A stretch of DNA of 64,000 nucleotides from Lepraria neglecta (lineage: Eukaryota > Ascomycota > Lecanoromycetes > Lecanorales > Stereocaulaceae), in the NCBI GenBank assembly GCA_033220425.1, contig CM065647.1:1-64000 (forward strand), read 5' to 3'. The notes under the pieces were generated by a model. It was not told the origin of the DNA, searched no databases, and worked only from the letters and a program-made list of their open reading frames with translations. Position numbers and translations under genes: made by a program. Of this stretch, positions 1,090-30,090 are shown piece after piece. Each line of letters begins with the position of its first letter. Within the stretch, counting starts at the first letter, position 1.

Positions 1090-4000
1090 GAGGGGATCGA
1101 TAAATAGGCTATATAGACTACTCCCTGTTATATTTCACCGCCTCCCAGACGGAGGATATACTAGCTCTTCCTATACTGTATGATTTGAATAAGGAGCTGT
1201 AGCTGCTGTTGCTGATGCTGCTGAAATAGGAGTAACTGCTGGTGTAAATGCTGCTGGAGGAGCTGCTGCTGTTATAAGTCTATCGGTAGAGACGGCGTCG
1301 CCGGCGCTGATATAGCGTTTGGCGGAGGGAGATCGGCTGCCTCTATCGCAGGCTCTCGTAACTGGGGGAGAGAATCCGTCGGAGCGGGTCGTTTTCTACC
1401 CCGGGGCTCAGGACTTGTCTCGAGACGTTCAGACCCGTCTATACCTAGGAAGTGGGACCTACCGTCGGCGGTACTTATAGGACCCTCCGCCGAGAGATTT
1501 GAATTATCTCTAGGCGGTATGCTATCCGATCGTCCTACCGATTCAATAGTTGAATCTTTACCTCGGTCCTCCTGTAATGGTTAAGCGGGCTCCTCAGCTG
1601 GCTGCTCCTCTACCGGGGGCTCTAAGGGCTCTGAGGGCGCCTCCTGCAGCCAGAGCGTATGCCATAGTAGGCTAACCCGGCGATATCGCTCGCGAAACTC
1701 CCTGATCTGCCCATCACCGTCCTGGACTAGACGCCCGTATATCGTGCCGGCCGTGTTGTTCGAATGGCAAGCCTGCCGGTCAAGGGTTTAACTCGTCTCG
1801 CTGTCGGCCTCGCGATCGAAATACGTCCCCTTGGGGATAAACTCGCGCGAGATAGCGATAGCGGTATGGCGCCAGGACGAGATCGTCAGCGGCACCTGGA
1901 GCTCCCGCGCGGATTCCTGCCGCAGGAAGTGGGATAGCTGGCTCGGGTCCCACGTCGTCTCCGCCCTGGCCTAGAGGAACGCCGAATCCTCAGGCTGATC
2001 ATAGACAAGACGGCTGAGCTGCTGGGAGAAGGGTAGAACCAAGACAAGGTATTGAACGACGACCTGGCTGAGCGCCGGGGGTAAATATTGATAGATAATC
2101 TTTAGGGATCCGCCGATAGAGTAGCCTTTATGGTACAGGGTGACAAATCCTAGCAGACCCTGCTCGATATAGATGTTTCGATAACCGCCGTAGAAGGTGT
2201 TACGGTATCGCAGACTGAATAGCTCCGTCCCCCTCGCGGGCTGCCCGCTGAGGATAAAGATTAGCATCGATAGCCGCGTCAGAAACCGTCGAAGGAGCTC
2301 CAGATACTGTCGGACGCGGGCTACCTGCCATTGAGGCTCCTTCGGTGGTTGACCGGCGACGCGCCGCTCTAACTGGAAGAACTGCTCGCGTAGTATACGC
2401 TGGTCCAGCACGCGATTAATAAGCCACTCCTGCCACCGAGCCAGATCGTTCTGCGGCTCCTGCAGGAAGGACCAGCCGGTTTGAGCGTTAGCGGGGTTAT
2501 CCCTCAGCTTACCGAGATCGAACCGTGGGATACTCTGCTCGTACGGCTGCGGTAGGCAGAGCTCGCTTAGCTCGGCGCAGAGGGCCTCGGTTTGCTGACG
2601 CAGAAAGCCCCGAAACGCTTTAATATCCAGAGTGATATCTTTAAAGGTGAGACTGGACCGATCATCCGCCCACGTGATATAGCCGGCGCTCGTCGTATTG
2701 TTCCGAATCCGTCTACCCTGGGAGCGCAAGGTGAGAATCCAGCCAAACGGTGTATGGCTGTCCCGAAGCAGGCAGCGGGCGCGGTAGGCGCGAAGCATAT
2801 CGGCGGCGTGCTCTACCTTACCGGCCTCCTCAGCGTAGACGCTCGCCTGAATGGTAAGCAGCTGGGTGATTTTAACAAAGGCGGATAGGGTTGGGGTGTA
2901 ATTGCAGGCGTCGTAGAAACGACCCTATCGAGCTTGGATCAGCAGGGCCGGGGGGTAGGGGGAACGGTAGAGATTAGTTGGTAGGAGAAGGGAAGAGAGG
3001 GAGGAGCTCCGTACCTGCTTCTCGTCGATCCTGAGGATCGCTAGGAACCCGACGACGGTGGACTGGTAGATGCTCTGGGGCAGGATATGCTCCAGCAGCG
3101 CCATACACAGCCGCGCCAGGACTCGGTCCAGCTTCTAACGGCGCTCATTCAGCGCTTCTACGGTAACACCCTCTCGGCCCTGAAGCCCGACCAGCGTATA
3201 GGCCTCGCGGATACTCCGCCGCAGTCCGGTATACTGATTCCGCGTCAGGATAAACAGAAAGGTCGGATTGGCCTCGTCTCTCGATATACTATCAGTATCA
3301 AGATCCTCGACGGCGGCAATAGCGGTCTAGACTTCAGGATCCGCGGTCCGATATAAGAAGCACCGATATACGAAGCACAGCAGGCGCTTCCATACGTTCT
3401 TATACTCCCGGTACGTCCCTTCTCGGAGCTGCGTGGTTAGCGGTCGTCCCGCCTTGGTTGCGTGGTCGGTAAACATATTGATCATGGTCTGGTCGAAGAT
3501 GTTGATCCGTTCCGTCAGGACCGAGGTACGCGCTTCCTCAATGATCCGATCTAGGCTCTGGCTGAATTCGCGCAGGATCGTCTCGGTCGGTGGGGGGGTC
3601 GACCAGAGGCAGGATCTTCCGTAGCTCGTAGCCCTTGAGGAATTCGGCCCACCGCGTGATCCGGAGCCAGGGATTCGCCTCGGTCCGATCGGCCGGGGCG
3701 AGGATACCTAGATGATCCTGCTGCTGCTGCGCCGTCGCGATCGTCTGTAGCTAGGTTCGTACGCGCTGCTGGATCCTCGCCGTATATACAGTCTCGGTAC
3801 CTATCTCGATCTCCGTGGGGATACCCGGCGGGTTCTGAGCTGGAGGGTGAGCAGCCGCAGCCGCCGCTACTGCAGTCGTAGCAGGTTCAATAATTTCTAG
3901 GAAGAAGCTGCCGGTACCTGCGGTGAATAGCCGCTGGCATCGAACACCGCAGCGCTACGGCTCCGATCCTCGGTTTCTGACGCTGGCGGTGCTCGGCCGG

Positions 4001-19832: not shown

Positions 19833-20199
19833 CTAGCCCTGGTAGTTACCGTCGGCCTCGTCGGCGTCGTTGGCCCGCTTTCCTTGGTAGTTACCGTCGG
19901 CCTCGTCGGCGTCGTTGGCCCGCTTTCCTTGGTAGTTACCGTCGGCCTCGTCGGCGTCGTTGGCCCGCTTTCCTTGGTAGTTACCGTCGGCCTCATCGGC
20001 ATCCTTAGCATCCTCAGATCGTCGGGTAGGAATGACATTGAGCGCCATGGGAGAGAGAGGAGCTCGGGCGGCAATGTCTGTTCACATATTAGTTGCAAGC
20101 TCTTCAGAAGATGAAGTGTTTACCTTTGGTGGATGCTACAGGAGCGCATACTGCTAGTGAAGCTCCCGAGAGTAGGAGGAGGATTGTTTGAGGAAGCAT
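19833..20199 (-). CDS. Putative dikaritin-type RiPP precursor: signal peptide plus four Kex2-spaced repeats
   Basis: Two exons on the minus strand, 20199-20124 and 20077-19833, give 106 residues. The 46-nt intron (20123-20078) has GTAAAC, a CTAAT branch site and an ACAG end, in phase 1. Residues 1-19 form a classical signal peptide (MLPQ, a Leu run, cleavage likely after AVCA). After a short pro-region with Arg-Arg at 44-45 come four units: residues 46-61, then three of KRANDADEADGNYQG (62-106), the last ending directly at TAG. The KR sites at 62, 77 and 92 suit Kex2; each unit ends Asn-Tyr-Gln-Gly, with Tyr as the likely crosslinked residue. This is the plan of UstA/PhomA/AprA-type precursors. 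Two UstYa-family genes lie within 5 kb. An in-frame upstream ATG (20313) would bury the signal peptide, so 20199 is preferred. Core limits, product and activity are inferred or unknown. Confidence 0.85.
19836..20018 (-). repeat. 45-bp coding repeat array of the precursor gene
   Basis: Four in-frame 45-bp units. The three downstream units are almost identical at the DNA level even at silent sites; the unit nearest the pro-region has drifted at its start and lacks the KR codons, and a single G/A change marks the last Gln codon. Such uniformity points to recent unit duplication or gene conversion, as usual in fungal multi-core precursors. Confidence 0.9.
20078..20123 (-). other. Intron of the precursor gene
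   Basis: 46 nt, donor GGTAAAC, branch AACTAAT, acceptor GAACAG. Without removal the signal-peptide exon meets TGA nine codons past residue 25, and the repeat exon has no secretion signal. Splicing joins a signal peptide to the repeats in the only open frame, which is strong support for the model. Confidence 0.85.
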
Positions 20200-21437
20200 C
20201 TTGAACAAATCGTCGTATACTTGAAATATGCTGGAAATCTGGTCCTTGCTGAAGTTTAAGGATCTGGTATGAAGGCTGGATGTTCCTTGGACCACTACGG
20301 GGCAGTTAGCCATAATTATACTGATTCACTAACCACGAGTTCCAACCGCCCCAGAGAATCTCAACACAGCATCTCTCTGCTCGACGGCTCAAGGCCCTAG
20401 GCTTGCTTCGCTGTCCTCGAAGATCTTGATGCCGAATGGTTGCGTCGATACTAGGTCTTCTCTGCTCTGCCGTGTCTGAACGCCTCGACCGTCATTCTCA
20501 TGCAACCTCTGCCTATCCATCACTGAGGATCGCAACATTGAGGCCATGCCAGTCCAAGAATCAGCTGAAAAGTGCAAGTCGGACAGAGACTAGACTACAA
20601 GATCTCCGAATCTACCTTCCTGATTCAATACGGCATAAGACACGGAGCTTGAAGCCATCAACAACTATCAGGGATCGTCACTGACGTCAATGGCTAAGGC
20701 GCTCAACTCTTCACCAGCCTTCACCTCGCATATGCATCTACAGGATCTCCGAATCTACCTTCCTAATTCAATACGGCACCAGACACGGAGCTTGAAGCTA
20801 TCAACAATTATCAAAGATCGTCAATGGCCAAAGCACTCGTCCTTGTACCGCGTACGTATGCAGGGACCTAGAGCTATCAACGATTATCAAAGATCGTTAA
20901 TGGCTAAAGTGCTGGCCCTTGTATCGCGCACGCATGCAGGGACTTGGTGTGCCCTAATAGACTTTGTTTTGCGCCAAGAGCGTTCGGCGTACGCGGCAAA
21001 TCACGGATCATCGTCCTGCAGATTCGGCAATCCTGGCTGACTACTAAGATCTACGAGACAAGCTTCCTTGACCTGACGCCTGTTGAAGATCATCTATGAT
21101 CGTTGATCGCGATCTTCGCCTAGAGTGATTCATAGAAGCGAAAGCAAGGTTAGCCAACGAAAACAGGAAGACCGTTCCTCCTAGTTGATCGGCGATGGCC
21201 TGCGCTCCTTTGCGCGTCCTACTTGCCTGACTCAAAGACTTTGCCGGATCCGATTTTGGCCGACTTCGGCATTTCTTACACGACTTCGACTCTACACCTC
21301 AGGCAACAGCATGCTTCACGGCCTCCTTAACCCTCAAGTCCTTCATCGCACTCGACTAGGCAGTATTCTCGCTCTATACTAAATGCCGGATCTCCACATA
21401 TTAGCAATCTCGCTCTATCACAATATCACCATCCACA
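20200..21437. promoter_or_regulatory. Divergent intergenic region between precursor and first UstYa-family gene
   Basis: 1.24 kb separating the minus-strand precursor from the plus-strand UstYa gene, presumably holding both promoters. Part of it is duplicated (20594-20945, separate entry). Several 60-116-codon open frames overlap on both strands here without any domain; I regard them as chance. No binding site is assigned. TATACTAAATG and CT-rich text at 21374-21436 lie just before the UstYa start. Confidence 0.5.
20594..20945. repeat. Partial tandem duplication, 143-bp then 76-bp spacing
   Basis: GATCTCCGAATCTACCTTCC followed by an AATACGGC...ACACGGAGCTTGAAG block occurs at 20601 and 20744. 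The later part (AGCTATCAACAATTATCAAAGATCG and the following ATGGC..AAGC) recurs at 20796 and again at 20872, giving a third, shortened copy. Differences are scattered and not RIP-like. It sits in the shared promoter region of the cluster. Confidence 0.8.
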
Positions 21438-22533
21438 ATGATGTCCGAGAAGAATGTCATGTACGATGAACTACGAGCATCAGAGGAAGCTCTACTCCCA
21501 AACGATAAATTCCATGTTCCTTTGCAGCTAGCTCCATATTCTCAGAGCCGCCGGATTATAAAGGGCATTTCCAGACGTCTCGATCGTGCGCATTCGAAGA
21601 TCAACTACCGTCTAGCGATACTCCAGGTTCTGCTTATCGCCATTTATACCGTTGTATTCATCGTTCTGCAATCGCAGATACTTGAAATTGACAACGGAGC
21701 TCTCATACCATGTGAGTGCCTTGAACGGAGCTAGCCGCCGTTCAGAAAAGCTCACAAGACCGCGTTGTAGCACCAGCAAGACCTGCCATCCAGATGGAGC
21801 GCAGAACGCTTCACAACTCCGTCAATGCTTCGAACCCATACAAAGGCCCTCCAAGTCCAGAGCTAGACCTGGCATGGCACAATTTGCTTAGGCGTAAGTC
21901 GTTGCGTTATGGACGCCAAGAGCCTCGAGGAGCTGACCTTATACCTAGATGGTAACATTCGCCTGAGCGCACAAGAGTTGCGTGAGATGGGCAAAACGTC
22001 CGTCGAATTGGCGGATGACTCTGGAGACTATATTGGAGCTTTGGGTATGTCACAACAAGCACCACCGGTGGCTGATGTGCGGATTGAAAGGCTCACCATT
22101 ATCAGATGCCTACCATGAGTTGCACTGCTTGAAATATATCCGACACTATATCTATCGCGACTCGTATCCCATTATAAAGACGAATGTACCGAGTCTGGAT
22201 CACGTTGACCACTGCATCGACAGTCTTCGCCAGCTGGTGATGTGTCGCACTGATGTGGCTATGCAAACTTACTCCTGGATTCCCACCTTGCGCATCCCAT
22301 GGGCCAATTTTGAGACCGAACACGAGTGCCAGAATTGGGACGCCCTCGACGGCTGGGCTTCGCAGCGTGCATTCGACATCTACGATCCCAAAATGCTGCG
22401 TCATCCTACTCTAGGTAAAGCAACCGCTTTCTCTCCATTCACTTTTAACCCTAGGTTATGCTAACCCCCCTATCTTACCATAGGTACCTCGTTCCCTCCC
22501 GGGTGGGACGAGCAGCAGGAGACGGAGAATTGA
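21438..22533 (+). CDS. UstYa-family (DUF3328) oxidative cyclisation enzyme, copy 1
   Basis: Five exons: 21438-21711, 21759-21893, 21949-22044, 22106-22414, 22484-22533; 287 residues. Introns of 47, 55, 61 and 69 nt have GTGAGT/GTAAGT/GTATGT/GTAAAG donors; clear branch sites are CTGAC (intron 2) and CTAAC (intron 4). A cytosolic N-terminus is followed by one membrane segment (about 59-78). Then come NPYKGPPSPELDLAWHNLL (the family's conserved block before the catalytic part) and both HxxHC motifs, H172-H175-C176 and H201-H204-C205, the latter followed by IDSLRQ and MCRTDV. DUF3328 proteins such as UstYa/UstYb install macrocycles by C-H oxidation on Kex2-released peptides in the secretory pathway. 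Divergent neighbour of the precursor gene. Every intron keeps the frame, and length is normal. The first intron's acceptor (21758) is the least certain boundary. Confidence 0.9.
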
Positions 22534-23989
22534 GCGAATGTTTTATTGTGGCGTGATTGGGTCCGGCCTACCCTCGCCATGAAGCGGGTAGTCCCATAGG
22601 AAGTCGTACTCTTTGAACAATACATTGGGTTCTACCGAGCCCTCATGAATACCCCGATGTTGATCTTTGCTCTTCATCGTCAATACGTGATAACATCGAC
22701 TCGTGGCGCCGTAGTCAATCTTATCCTATTCGTCTGTATAGCAGGGGCGTCCTGTTCATTCTGCCAATCTTTAGTCTGGGGTCCCGGGATTGCCATCTGG
22801 CGTTGGAGCGAAGCTAGCCATGCAGAGATACCACAACAGAAGCTGGGATACGAGTATAGTTTCAACATTCTTCGCTACTTGTAACGCCCCCTCGCTCATA
22901 GACCCTAACGATTGGGGCTTTACGATAGTCGAACTATACGGCAATATCTGTCACTGGGCTCGCGGATGCGCTCGCCAACAAGCCTTGCGACGGAATAGAT
23001 GCGCGCGCCACCGAGTTATCATTCAACCCTTGCGGTTCGCTTCGGCCCTTTAAGGTTGTGGCTTCTGGCTTGCCTGTTAGTCGCGGACTAGAGAGCGGCC
23101 CCGCAGGCGCCTCTTTTGCCCCGCTTCGACGTTGGCCAGATGCGCTTCCAACTCCATTTGATGCTCATTCGTGGGAGTTTACTTCTATGTCGATAGATGT
23201 TGCTGGCGTGGGTGCATGCTCCTGTCCAGCAGCCTAGCAAGAGTGGATGATCTCGCTTGGTCTGACCATTCCCACCCCGGACCGGCGCCATGCATCCTGT
23301 TTTCCAGTGTTCAGGGTCATAGCGAAGTCTCCATCTTCCAAAACGCCATCCCAAGGGAGAAACTACTGAGAAGGCCCGAGCCACGCTTGGCATTGTGCGC
23401 TAATCCACGCCATCCTTTGCGTCTGACCTCTCGAGTCTGCAGCTACCGTCGAGGCACCCGACGATCCCTTCAATCCCGTGCTACAGTGCCTTAGCCTCGA
23501 TCACGAAAAGCTTCAACTCCCGCAGATCTACCATCTTCGGTCTCTGCATGTCTGCGGTCTACACGGCTTGGATGAATCCGGAAAAGGTCAAGTGCACTCG
23601 AAGATGCGATCAACCACTTTCTGCCGAGTCTCGGGTTGATCGCGAATGGCTTTAATTTTTGTAAATCTGCGATCTGCACGGCCTGCAGCAATTGGCCCGA
23701 CGACTTAAATACTTCGTTGCTGCCTTGTCGTCTTTCTTGAGGCATCAGCTCGAGCGGTGACTCCACCCTTCTGCATATGCACTGTGATAGATCTTCAAGA
23801 GACGGAGTTGGAGCTTCAGAGAGGATTCGGGGCAGGATCGCAGATCAACGACATCAACGACATCAGAGGCGCACCTTGCGTACTCGACGATAAATTGGAT
23901 GGGAATATCGCATGGTGATCCTAATTCCTTCTCCCAGTTCGTTATCATACTCTGATAATATCTACTATCCCTCGCCCGTTACGGCGTAA
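22534..23989. other. Spacer between the two UstYa-family genes; no confident gene
   Basis: Balanced base composition, no RIP. A 79-codon plus frame (22645-22884) is hydrophobic but resembles nothing I know. On the minus strand near 23693-23637 and 23580-23500 two stretches look alike (QAVQIADLQKLKPF; QAV-stop-TADMQ...LRELKLF), perhaps a decayed repeat protein. Neither HxxHC nor tyrosinase, P450 or methyltransferase motifs are seen. It may be the remains of a lost gene. Confidence 0.4.
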
Positions 23990-24084
23990 ATACTCTTACC
24001 TCTCTTACCTCTCGTCTTTCACCTCACCTCACCTTAACCATCTACCTCTTCCCTTTCCAAACACCACCAGCAAATTCCACCAAG
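23990..24084 (+). promoter_or_regulatory. Pyrimidine-rich core promoter / 5' leader of the second UstYa-family gene
   Basis: Repeated CTCTTACCTCT and CACCTCACCT words followed by CTTCCCTTTCC, then AAACACCACCAGCAAATTCCACCAAG immediately before the ATG at 24085. CT-tracts ending in an A-rich leader are typical just upstream of the start in filamentous ascomycetes. Confidence 0.6.
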
Positions 24085-25068
24085 ATGCTGCCATCCCTCC
24101 ATATCTACAGACCGATCAGCCCCAGCGCTGACGGCGACTGGCACGAAAAGCCCTCATCTACCGCCTCCTCCTCTTCCTCCGTCACCGACGGCGACTCTGC
24201 GCTTCCCTTCTTCGAGTATGCTCATCTGCCTCACGCAACCCACCCCTTCCGCCCTCTTCTCTGCACCCTCGGGTACCTTCTCGCCGCCACGGCCTTCGCT
24301 GCTACTACTCTTTTCTTTGTCATCCATCCTGCCCGCGGCCCCTCTCCAATTCCCGTTTTTCCAACCCAAACTCTCATCTTTCATCCAGAGCCCGCCTATG
24401 CCGCACCCGCCTCCCCCTCCAGCGATGCGCTCTGGGACGCCAATCTGCCTAGCGGCAAAGGCTTCGTGCTGCTGGAAGACGCAGGTCAATACAGCCTGCC
24501 GCCCGGCCTACCCAGCGCGGGCGGTAACGCGACGGGCGTGTACGGCGTGACCTGGACACACGAGTATCACTGCCTGGTAAGCCCTGCATCCTCATATCAT
24601 CCGTGATCCGGGCAGCGCTGACTCTATCGGAATGCAGAAGCTAATACGCATGGAGTTCTGGAACGCTCTGGACGGCATAAGCCGGCTGTACGGCGGCGAC
24701 AAGGCGCAGCCGCCACTGGATATTATGGACGTGCGGCGACTTCATCATGTCCAGGTAAGTAGCGCGATGGGCGGTGAGGATGTTAATAAGTGCTAACACG
24801 CAGGACAGCACTGCATGGATTACATACGCCAGCTGATCATGTGCCGCGCGGACATGACTGTCGAGTGGGCAGCGCCATACCCAGACGCGCTGGGCAACGA
24901 GCACCATATCGATGGGTATGGCGTGCCGCATACGTGCACAAAATGGGTGAGTCGATGGCCAAAAGCGTGTGAGAGGAGGGTGAATAGCCGCTGACGACAA
25001 CGTAGGACGATATGTACGATTATATGATAGAGAACAAGCCGCGACGGCATCAGCAGCACGAGCATTAG
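24085..25068 (+). CDS. UstYa-family (DUF3328) oxidative cyclisation enzyme, copy 2
   Basis: Four exons: 24085-24576, 24638-24754, 24809-24946, 25006-25068; 269 residues. The three phase-0 introns (61, 54, 59 nt) have GTAAGC, GTAAGT and GTGAGT donors and CTGAC or CTAAC branch sites. A Ser-rich N-terminus and one membrane segment (about 58-80) precede SSDALWDANLP, a block ending YSLPPGLP, and a possible glycosylation site NAT. Both HxxHC motifs are present, at H159-H162-C163 and H201-H204-C205 (followed by MDYIRQLIMCRADMT). In intron 2 the acceptor must be the second AG (24808); the first gives an immediate stop. GC-rich with third-position C, unlike copy 1, so the two are old paralogues, not a recent duplication. 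Same inferred role on the repeat precursor. Confidence 0.9.
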
Positions 25069-27631: not shown

Positions 27632-28132
27632 TGTTACGAACCGTGCGTCTCGGTGTTACAAGCCACAACTATACTATATTGAACGTATAGTTGTCGAACG
27701 TTATCGAACGGGCTTAGTATAGGGTACAAGTCGAACGAATTAGTATTCGACTCGGACAGATCCTGAAAGGGCTTGGCGCGTTAAGCGATAAGCGTAATAA
27801 GTATAGTACGATCAAAGTAATTATAGATGATAAGCGCAATAAGCGCAGTGCGATTAGTACGATCAAGAATACTTAGTATAGATTTCGTATATCTATATAT
27901 ACGGAGTACTATTTACTACTTAGAGTATTATACTTAACTTCCTTACCTTTTATATCTAAATTATAAGTAATAGATCTTTTAGGCTAGGTACTAAATATAT
28001 ATTATCTAATTATATACTAGACCCGCTTAGTATTACTTAAAGCCTACTTTATACTCTTATATAGTAGTATACCTATCCCTATTAAGAATTAATCTATAGT
28101 ATAATACCGGGATATACGATTTATAATACTTT
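27632..28132 (+). repeat. 5' LTR of element J, with long terminal inverted repeats
   Basis: 501 bp. It starts TGTTACGAACCGTGCGTCTCGG and ends with the RIP-mutated complement (CCGGGATATACGATTTATAATA), so the LTR itself is bounded by inverted repeats of roughly 25 bp, far longer than the usual TG..CA. The following base run is CTTTGAGTACCCTTAAGG. Confidence 0.8.
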
Positions 28133-29185: not shown

Positions 29186-29758
29186 TCAGCCAAATGCACT
29201 GAATCTGGCGACTAGCACTGAGGTCCAGGCACCACTACTAATAGTAGGATGCATAAGCTTATGTCTTCGGGGATAGCCAATGGCGTCGGTGCTTGGCGTT
29301 TGGCTGAATTGAGTTGGTGGAGTAACTTTTGGCTGAGCAAATTGGGTGGGATGCGACTGAATTTGCTCAGGGGCAAAAGTCTGCATGCGGGGGCATTCCC
29401 ACTGATCAGGAATTGACTCATCTTCATTATAGTTTGGGGCCGTATCAGTCCGAGATGCTAGGGCATGCTCAGGAGCAAATTCCTGTGTTGCAGATGCAGA
29501 GGTTTCAGGTTCAGGCTCAGGGGCAAATTGCGGAGGTGCAGTAGCAGCTGCAGCTGCAGTAGCAATTCCAGCTGCGTATTGCGTCATAGCTTCTCTGATA
29601 GCAAGCTGAATTGACTCATATAGCTCATATCTTTGCCGCGGTGTGAAACCTGGATATCGAGAGGCAGAACTCTCGTTCCAAGCTGAATAGTCCCATAATG
29701 TAGACATCTCATTTGTAGTGCTTTTTCCAGCTGATTTGGCAGCTGATTTGGTAGGCAA
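29186..29758 (-). CDS. Gag-like / low-complexity protein of element L
   Basis: 190 codons, uninterrupted. The N-terminus is Lys/Ser/Ala-rich, then a block YPGFTPRQRYELYESIQLA, an Ala run, and a Pro/Gln/Glu-rich C-terminal half with QFAPE-like repeats. No zinc knuckle, protease or polymerase motif. Position (only frame between two LTRs) suggests the element's Gag or a passenger; I cannot tell which. The open frame and normal codon use contrast with the RIP-ruined surroundings, so it may still be expressed. Confidence 0.55.
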   Translation of the reverse strand: MPTKSAAKSAGKSTTNEMSTLWDYSAWNESSASRYPGFTPRQRYELYESIQLAIREAMTQYAAGIATAAAAATAPPQFAPEPEPETSASATQEFAPEHALASRTDTAPNYNEDESIPDQWECPRMQTFAPEQIQSHPTQFAQPKVTPPTQFSQTPSTDAIGYPRRHKLMHPTISSGAWTSVLVARFSAFG

Positions 29759-29836
29759 TTTGCTCGGTGACGTAGTGTAGGCGTCGCAGCAGCTGGTGCT
29801 CAGAGGGCGACACGATTGGTTAGCAGTGAGTGCTGC

Positions 29837-30090
29837 TGTTGGCGTCTCTGGATCAGGGCAGGTGGGCGTAGGATGTAATTGGTTGGTAGTAGAGTACTAC
29901 CGTTGGCGTCTCTGGATCAGGGCAGGTGGGCGTAGGATGTAATTGGTTGGTAGTAGAGTACTACCGTTGGCGTCTCTGGATCAGGGCAGGTGGGCGTAGG
30001 ATGTAATTGGTTGGTAGTAGAGTACTACCGTTGGCGTCTCTGGATCAGGGCAGGTGGGCGTAGGATGTAATTGGTTGACAGCTTAGTGAG
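29837..30090. repeat. 64-bp minisatellite in element L
   Basis: GGCGTCTCTGGATCAGGGCA recurs at 29841, 29905, 29969 and 30033, an exact 64-bp period with nearly identical units; each contains GGGCAGGTGGGCG and the hairpin GGTAGTAGAGTACTACC. Two further GGGCAGGTGGGCG words follow at about 30145 and 30185. Confidence 0.92.

Follow-up and report, generated by a model that had tools for sequence, protein, structure and literature searches.

The window analysed here comprises bases 1-64,000 of contig C2 (CM065647.1, 5,985,804 bases) of Lepraria neglecta, whose genome amounts to 42.0 Mb in 11 contigs. L. neglecta is an ascomycete of the Stereocaulaceae within the Lecanoromycetes, and the title of its genome paper is said to call the fungus lichen-forming. 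At positions 19833-25068, a gene for a repeat-containing precursor peptide was identified close to two genes of the UstYa (DUF3328) family. Judged from the sequence, the locus probably represents a compact and intact-looking cluster of the ustiloxin type for a ribosomally synthesized and post-translationally modified peptide (RiPP), a reading to which we assign a probability of about 0.72. The features are as follows:

19833-20077, minus strand: precursor exon 2, with the leader DIAARAPLSPMALNVIPTRRS containing an RR site, followed by four units ending in NYQG with KR between them; stop codon at 19833-19835
20078-20123, minus strand: precursor intron of 46 bases, GT-AG (GTAAAC..AACAG), spliced identically in the deposited protein
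20124-20199, minus strand: precursor exon 1 with the signal-like start MLPQTILLLLSGASLAVCAPVASTK (by hydropathy, not SignalP) and the ATG at 20199; N-terminus identical to OEA41_002627
20200-21437, no strand: upstream region common to the divergent precursor and UstYa1 genes, 1,238 bases, with imperfect direct repeats
21438-22533, plus strand: UstYa1, exons 21438-21711, 21771-21893, 21949-22044, 22106-22414 and 22484-22533; 283 amino acids; HELHC and HVDHC; Pfam UstYa, E 1.9e-50
24085-25068, plus strand: UstYa2, exons 24085-24576, 24638-24754, 24809-24946 and 25006-25068; 269 amino acids; HEYHC and HVQHC; Pfam UstYa, E 5.3e-23; cluster membership uncertain

The precursor gene and its relative

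The original prediction for this DNA had described a spliced gene joining a signal peptide to four Tyr-containing units separated by KR. This gene model was confirmed, since the spliced precursor of 106 amino acids is 100% identical to OEA41_002627, which is deposited as a 'hypothetical protein'. With four units separated by KR and a signal peptide (the latter by hydropathy only), the protein has the features of a Kex2-processed repeat protein (KEP). All four units end in NYQG, and units 2-4 have the same protein sequence. They are encoded by a 45-bp tandem array at 19840-20000 (3.6 copies, 99% matches), and because the DNA of the array is 99% alike, the units alone tell little about selection. 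The plus strand of the array also contains an open frame with repeats ending in RR. This frame was rejected, since it has no signal-like start and a relative is known for the minus-strand protein, the sole strand searched. A GoLoco match of the precursor was discounted at 15.8 bits compared to a cut-off of 25.1.

At E ≤1, the only other match to the precursor was P0002, a protein of 78 amino acids encoded on an ENA metagenome contig of 9,347 bases (E 1.2e-14). P0002 retains the leader TDIAARAPLSP, the RRS site and the KR sites. Each of its three units contains N-Y-x-G, and two of them also keep the NDADEA spacer. Its cores are NYVG, NYSG and NYSG, with V, S and S at the position occupied by Q in L. 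neglecta. P0002 fits the expectation for a repeat precursor, in which one core position may vary. A homologue in which the repeat frame is not conserved had been set beforehand as the finding that would speak against the prediction; P0002, as the single relative, keeps the frame. By eye, P0002 seems to begin with translated intron sequence that runs up to the acceptor used by the precursor intron. In contrast to NYQG and NYVG, the NYSG core of P0002 matches the N-x-S sequon for N-glycosylation.

In the upstream region shared by the precursor and UstYa1, imperfect direct repeats of 89 and 72 bases were identified at 20595-20943, which are possibly regulatory. A genome search with positions 20560-20960 of this region gave self-matches only. 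An 'INNYQG' reading upstream of UstYa1 (20639-21037, plus strand) was dismissed as a chance product of the imperfect direct repeats, in which the frame shifts between copies (by eye).

The UstYa proteins

According to a proposal from work on CctR, DUF3328 proteins are copper enzymes with a binuclear centre and a membrane anchor, and the same work tied the HxxHC motif to the two-copper centre (PMC12435403; here, as for the other papers cited, in the passages available). The motif pair HxxHC(x)nHxxHC, by which copper enzymes of the CctR type are recognized, is present in both UstYa1 and UstYa2, and by eye both proteins also contain a hydrophobic stretch. The Pfam matches and motif pairs listed above agree with the earlier description of two DUF3328 genes carrying both HxxHC motifs. 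For some introns, alternative acceptors are possible, and the choice was made by splice signals and relatives. A search of the PDB sequences with UstYa1 gave no match at E ≤1. A structure model of P0013, a relative of UstYa2, places a helix at 56-81 and both motifs on helices; it was discounted as evidence, since its mean pLDDT (predicted local distance difference test) is only 48.

For the UstYa1 locus, a protein of 217 amino acids has been deposited (OEA41_002628). It agrees with our model as far as intron 3, continues into this intron and resumes in exon 4 past both HxxHC motifs. Of the 10 matches obtained with UstYa1 in the protein search, one is this incomplete L. neglecta entry and seven are partial proteins without a name; the remaining two are longer, with 37-40% identity, and one of these two is from Xylaria. 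With UstYa2, 11 matches were obtained with 61-91% identity over the covered part, including one full-length protein of 269 amino acids (88%) in a metagenome-assembled genome of Alectoria sarmentosa. Since no L. neglecta entry is among these 11 matches, UstYa2 seems to be unannotated. Because OEA41_002628 omits the part of exon 4 with the HxxHC motifs and UstYa2 is seemingly unmodelled, the cluster could escape surveys that work from deposited proteins. Elsewhere in the L. neglecta genome, matches over exon-sized stretches were found with 27-48% identity for UstYa1 and 30-37% for UstYa2.

Repeat-precursor candidates at other UstYa loci

Genome-wide, at least 42 UstYa exon matches were obtained, which were grouped into 22 listed loci including the window; two of these lie 11 kb apart on contig C10. 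The listed loci were scanned in six frames, 21 of the 22 as stretches of about 10 kb. Under a strict rule, a frame had to contain at least three segments flanked by [KR]R sites and alike at their ends; this rule was applied to 26 regions containing 3,845 six-frame open reading frames (ORFs). Of the seven ORFs that matched, six are located in the window, L013, L016, L018, L022 and L027, and the seventh is the frame on the plus strand of the window array. In each of 20 composition shuffles, no ORF matched. A relaxed rule gave 20 rows and added L011 and L012 with three units each; in 10 shuffled sets this rule gave 0 or 1 match each, four in total.

Candidates with at least three dibasically cut units are thereby present at 8 of the 22 listed UstYa loci: the window (minus strand), L011, L012, L013 (628-975), L016 (2639-3049), L018 (5338-5547), L022 and L027. 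Two-unit candidates with a signal-like start were identified at three more (L015, L020 and L026, the last on the minus strand), giving 11 of 22. Nine relaxed rows were left out, namely window plus 27718, window plus 19829, L013 minus 788-985, L016 minus 2626-2985, L018 plus 7773, L018 minus 7745, L018 minus 7669, L021 plus 7700 and L026 plus 2703; none of them has a signal-like start except L018 plus 7773, at a locus already counted. The candidate gene models at the other loci are of uneven quality. Signal-like starts include an intron at L012, L016, L018, L022, L026 and for the second candidate of L013, and are continuous at L015, L020 and L027, while the start is weakly signal-like at L011 and not signal-like in the first L013 candidate.

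No repeat candidate was found in three UstYa-free background regions (29.7 kb), and the rest of the window contains one two-unit row (27718-27873) without a signal start. Given that ascomycete strains have 5.25 repeat genes on average (PMC7329392), about 0.03 repeat genes would be expected in 220 kb, with the window counted as 6.5 kb; this is a rough guide, as the printed rule for repeat genes differs from ours. The candidate and its nearest UstYa exon are divergently oriented at 8 of the 10 tabulated loci. L015 is tandem, and L018 is convergent with a second UstYa divergent. At L026, the nearest UstYa is divergent at about 1.5 kb, by arithmetic from the coordinates. This pattern of orientation was spotted post hoc.

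Some of the candidates resemble each other. The candidates at L016 (2639-3148, minus strand) and L022 (8264-8624, plus strand), on different contigs and each divergent from a UstYa gene, have related units ending in YPDSY (KR) and YPDY (RR), respectively, which suggests a family of cores with two Tyr residues. At L013, two related candidates (628-975 and 3146-3552, minus strand) with units FIxTPIEK or similar are located about 2.2 kb apart beside one UstYa; their repeats are imperfect and variable. L014 (G000:C1:6120600-6130500) combines two UstYa genes with a tyrosinase gene (C1:6128511-6129131), a set like that of ustiloxin and phomopsin, and the repeat scan of this stretch found no repeat precursor.

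Base composition and other contents of the window

The cluster is located in an island of about 19.3-25.1 kb with a GC content of 45-59% and a TA/AT ratio of 0.69-0.76 outside the precursor stretch. The AT-rich flanks at 5-19.3 kb and 32-64 kb have 32-39% GC, TA/AT ratios of 1.42-1.56 and (CA+TG)/(AC+GT) ratios of 0.27-0.52, dinucleotide ratios which we take to be like those left by repeat-induced point mutation (RIP). Milder stretches are present at 1-5 kb (GC 53%, TA/AT 1.21) and 26-32 kb (GC 42%, TA/AT 1.3). A TTAGGG array was not found in the 64 kb; a telomere claim was dropped for this reason, and the window is described as a contig end only.

Among 122 stop-to-stop ORFs of at least 70 amino acids in the window, Pfam matches at E ≤0.001 were obtained for UstYa (two ORFs) and for SH3_Tf2-1, rve and OrsD (one each). 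Methyltransferase, transporter and peptidase domains were not among these matches, from which short exons could escape. A tandem array of 64-base units (4.1 copies, 97% alike) at 29815-30077 overlaps the start of a minus-strand ORF at 29189-29896, for which no Pfam match was obtained.

Proposed pathway and alternative explanations

In the proposed pathway, the signal peptide, as predicted by hydropathy, would direct the precursor into the secretory pathway, where Golgi Kex2 would cut after KR and after the RR preceding unit 1. Four peptides would be released, each consisting of an acidic spacer and a short core, the core being most likely NYQG. UstYa1, as a membrane-anchored copper enzyme encoded head-to-head with the precursor, would then oxidise the core, most likely at Tyr, and family membership points to either a cross-link or a hydroxylation. 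The spacer may be trimmed afterwards by proteases encoded elsewhere. UstYa2 might carry out a second oxidation or might be an independent, conserved neighbour enzyme. With either Q, V or S following Tyr, the bond would be expected to need no particular aliphatic partner, or the modification to be a hydroxylation. The assignment as a RiPP cluster is supported by the island of low TA/AT ratio, the gene models, the UstYa Pfam matches with their motif pairs, the conservation of P0002 and the recurrence of candidates at 11 of the 22 listed loci.

Several observations weigh against this assignment. Only one relative of the precursor was found, on a metagenome contig, and the background for the recurrence is small, consisting of the 29.7 kb and the rest of the window. 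The gaps between a candidate and the nearest UstYa exon range from 0.6 to 4.1 kb, whatever genes lie between. The precursor stretch has a TA/AT ratio of 1.2, measured on 368 bases dominated by one 45-base repeat. For tyrosinase (PF00264), 16 exon matches were found genome-wide and none in the window, where small exons could escape; the sole match on this contig sits at 5.41 Mb. Furthermore, no Alectoria protein is among the 10 UstYa1 matches, though one is among those of UstYa2. UstYa2 may therefore be an older neighbour and no partner, and its link to the precursor is uncertain.

Among the alternatives, it is unlikely, yet to be reckoned with, that UstYa1 hydroxylates the core in the way CctR acts on its substrate and that no ring is formed. 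CctR is a hydroxylase (PMC12435403), and since the position after Tyr is variable, a Tyr ether would have no constant aliphatic partner. However, Q, V and S each have a usable beta carbon, and DUF3328 proteins encoded beside repeat precursors were reported to be indispensable for ring closure in three pathways (PMC7329392). It is improbable that the locus encodes linear Kex2 peptides, secreted unmodified as signal or surface peptides, with the adjoining UstYa genes acting on something else. Such a fate is common, since 6,120 of 7,878 printed Kex2 repeat proteins are without a nearby DUF3328 gene; however, repeat genes annotated as mating factors or pheromones were not located beside DUF3328 genes, with three exceptions (PMC7329392). 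In L. neglecta, the precursor is head-to-head with UstYa1 at a distance of 1,238 bases, divergent pairing was identified at most other candidate loci, and if 22 UstYa loci were scattered at random, a given gene would be within 1.3 kb of one with a probability of about 0.0014. That the cluster is a silent or decaying, intact-looking remnant in a RIP-ridden contig end appears very improbable, because the RIP-like flanks, the ratio of the precursor stretch and the few Pfam domains of the window are set against three genes with consensus-type introns and open frames, the low ratio in the rest of the island, the motifs kept by UstYa relatives elsewhere and the domination of the precursor ratio by a single short repeat.

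Comparison with known systems

In a 2020 survey, 1,647 ascomycete repeat genes with a DUF3328 neighbour were reported (PMC7329392), so that the combination of Kex2 repeats with DUF3328 is a well-known kind. DUF3328 genes peak adjoining Kex2-repeat genes, 65.6% of the repeats there contain Tyr, and ring closure through Tyr is attributed to the DUF3328 enzymes beside them (PMC7329392). The Kex2 repeat protein with UstYa at the L. neglecta locus is a known arrangement and no new class.

With the dikaritins ustiloxin and phomopsin, the locus shares a signal peptide, Kex2-cut repeats, a short core with Tyr and at least two close DUF3328 genes (PMC7329392, PMC9233826). It differs in that no tyrosinase or methyltransferase was detected in the window, Tyr is second in the apparent core and not first, the core is another one and the host is lichen-forming. 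The original prediction had stated that the known pathways combine 'exactly' a repeat precursor with UstYa-type enzymes. In this form the statement is not supported, since a tyrosinase is also needed for ustiloxin and phomopsin (PMC7329392). The asperipin-2a pathway likewise consists of a repeat precursor and a DUF3328 enzyme, with one DUF3328 gene (PMC7329392), while L. neglecta has a different core with one Tyr and two UstYa genes in the window. A compact form of the cluster is therefore not new, and because tyrosinase is named as required for ustiloxins and phomopsins only (PMC7329392), the gene content of L. neglecta is nearest to the asperipin-like case. The epichloecyclins, derived from GigA, have a multi-core precursor of the Kex2 type, DUF3328 enzymes and Tyr inside the core (PMC9233826); the GigA cores comprise nine residues, and the likeness is one of description only.

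A 2025 survey of 111 lichen genomes identified 987 RiPP clusters, with HxxHC-bearing DUF3328 genes across the Lecanoromycetes (PMC12048977); its main text does not name L. neglecta. The clans R1 and R2, from the Parmeliaceae, share these genes and the host class with the locus described here. In contrast, no repeated precursor was found for these clans and their accessory genes are different (PMC12048977), whereas L. neglecta has a repeat precursor beside the enzymes. In another study, 1,186 RiPP clusters were counted, and in the passages available precursors are not named (PMC12711211). According to the available text of PMC12048977 and PMC11353741, no RiPP from the Lecanoromycetes has been characterised so far.

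Of the dikaritin-type cluster originally predicted, the repeat precursor beside a UstYa gene and the compact form stand, and the membership of UstYa2 is uncertain. The new cyclic peptide that was expected from the NYQG units would be a putative product, with the NYVG and NYSG cores of P0002 fitting a variable core. In the broad sense, with DUF3328 as the class-defining enzyme (cited in PMC12048977), the locus would count as a dikaritin cluster, as two HxxHC motifs are encoded beside the precursor. In the five-gene sense of Ding et al. (cited in PMC12048977), several DUF3328 genes are present together with a precursor that has a leader and repeated cores, UstYa2 being a putative partner; a tyrosinase, a methyltransferase and a transporter or peptidase were not detected within the window.

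In searches for Lepraria RiPPs, lichen precursors and the core strings NYQG, NYSG and NYVG, which mostly covered papers outside subscription, no report of this precursor was found. Within the reach of these searches, three points are new: the family of NYxG precursors, the lichen host in which it occurs, and the repeated presence of precursor/UstYa pairs in a single lichen genome.

Implications for lichen-forming fungi

It is conceivable, and put forward here tentatively, that Lecanoromycete lichens possess a wealth of still unread ustiloxin-type RiPPs, for which a repeat precursor and a UstYa gene form a head-to-head module with a common upstream region. The NYxG family would be one such module, in which the leader, the spacer and the Asn, Tyr and Gly residues are fixed and the third core residue is free. 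With UstYa as the only tailoring enzyme detected, a Tyr cross-link might be formed here without a ring modified by tyrosinase. In a single lichen genome with long contigs, candidate precursors whose cores can be read were identified next to UstYa genes. Since the cores are readable, predicted masses could be searched for in thalli and the pathways could be rebuilt in laboratory hosts. The loci would also provide small substrate/enzyme pairs for probing how UstYa proteins act without helper oxidases.

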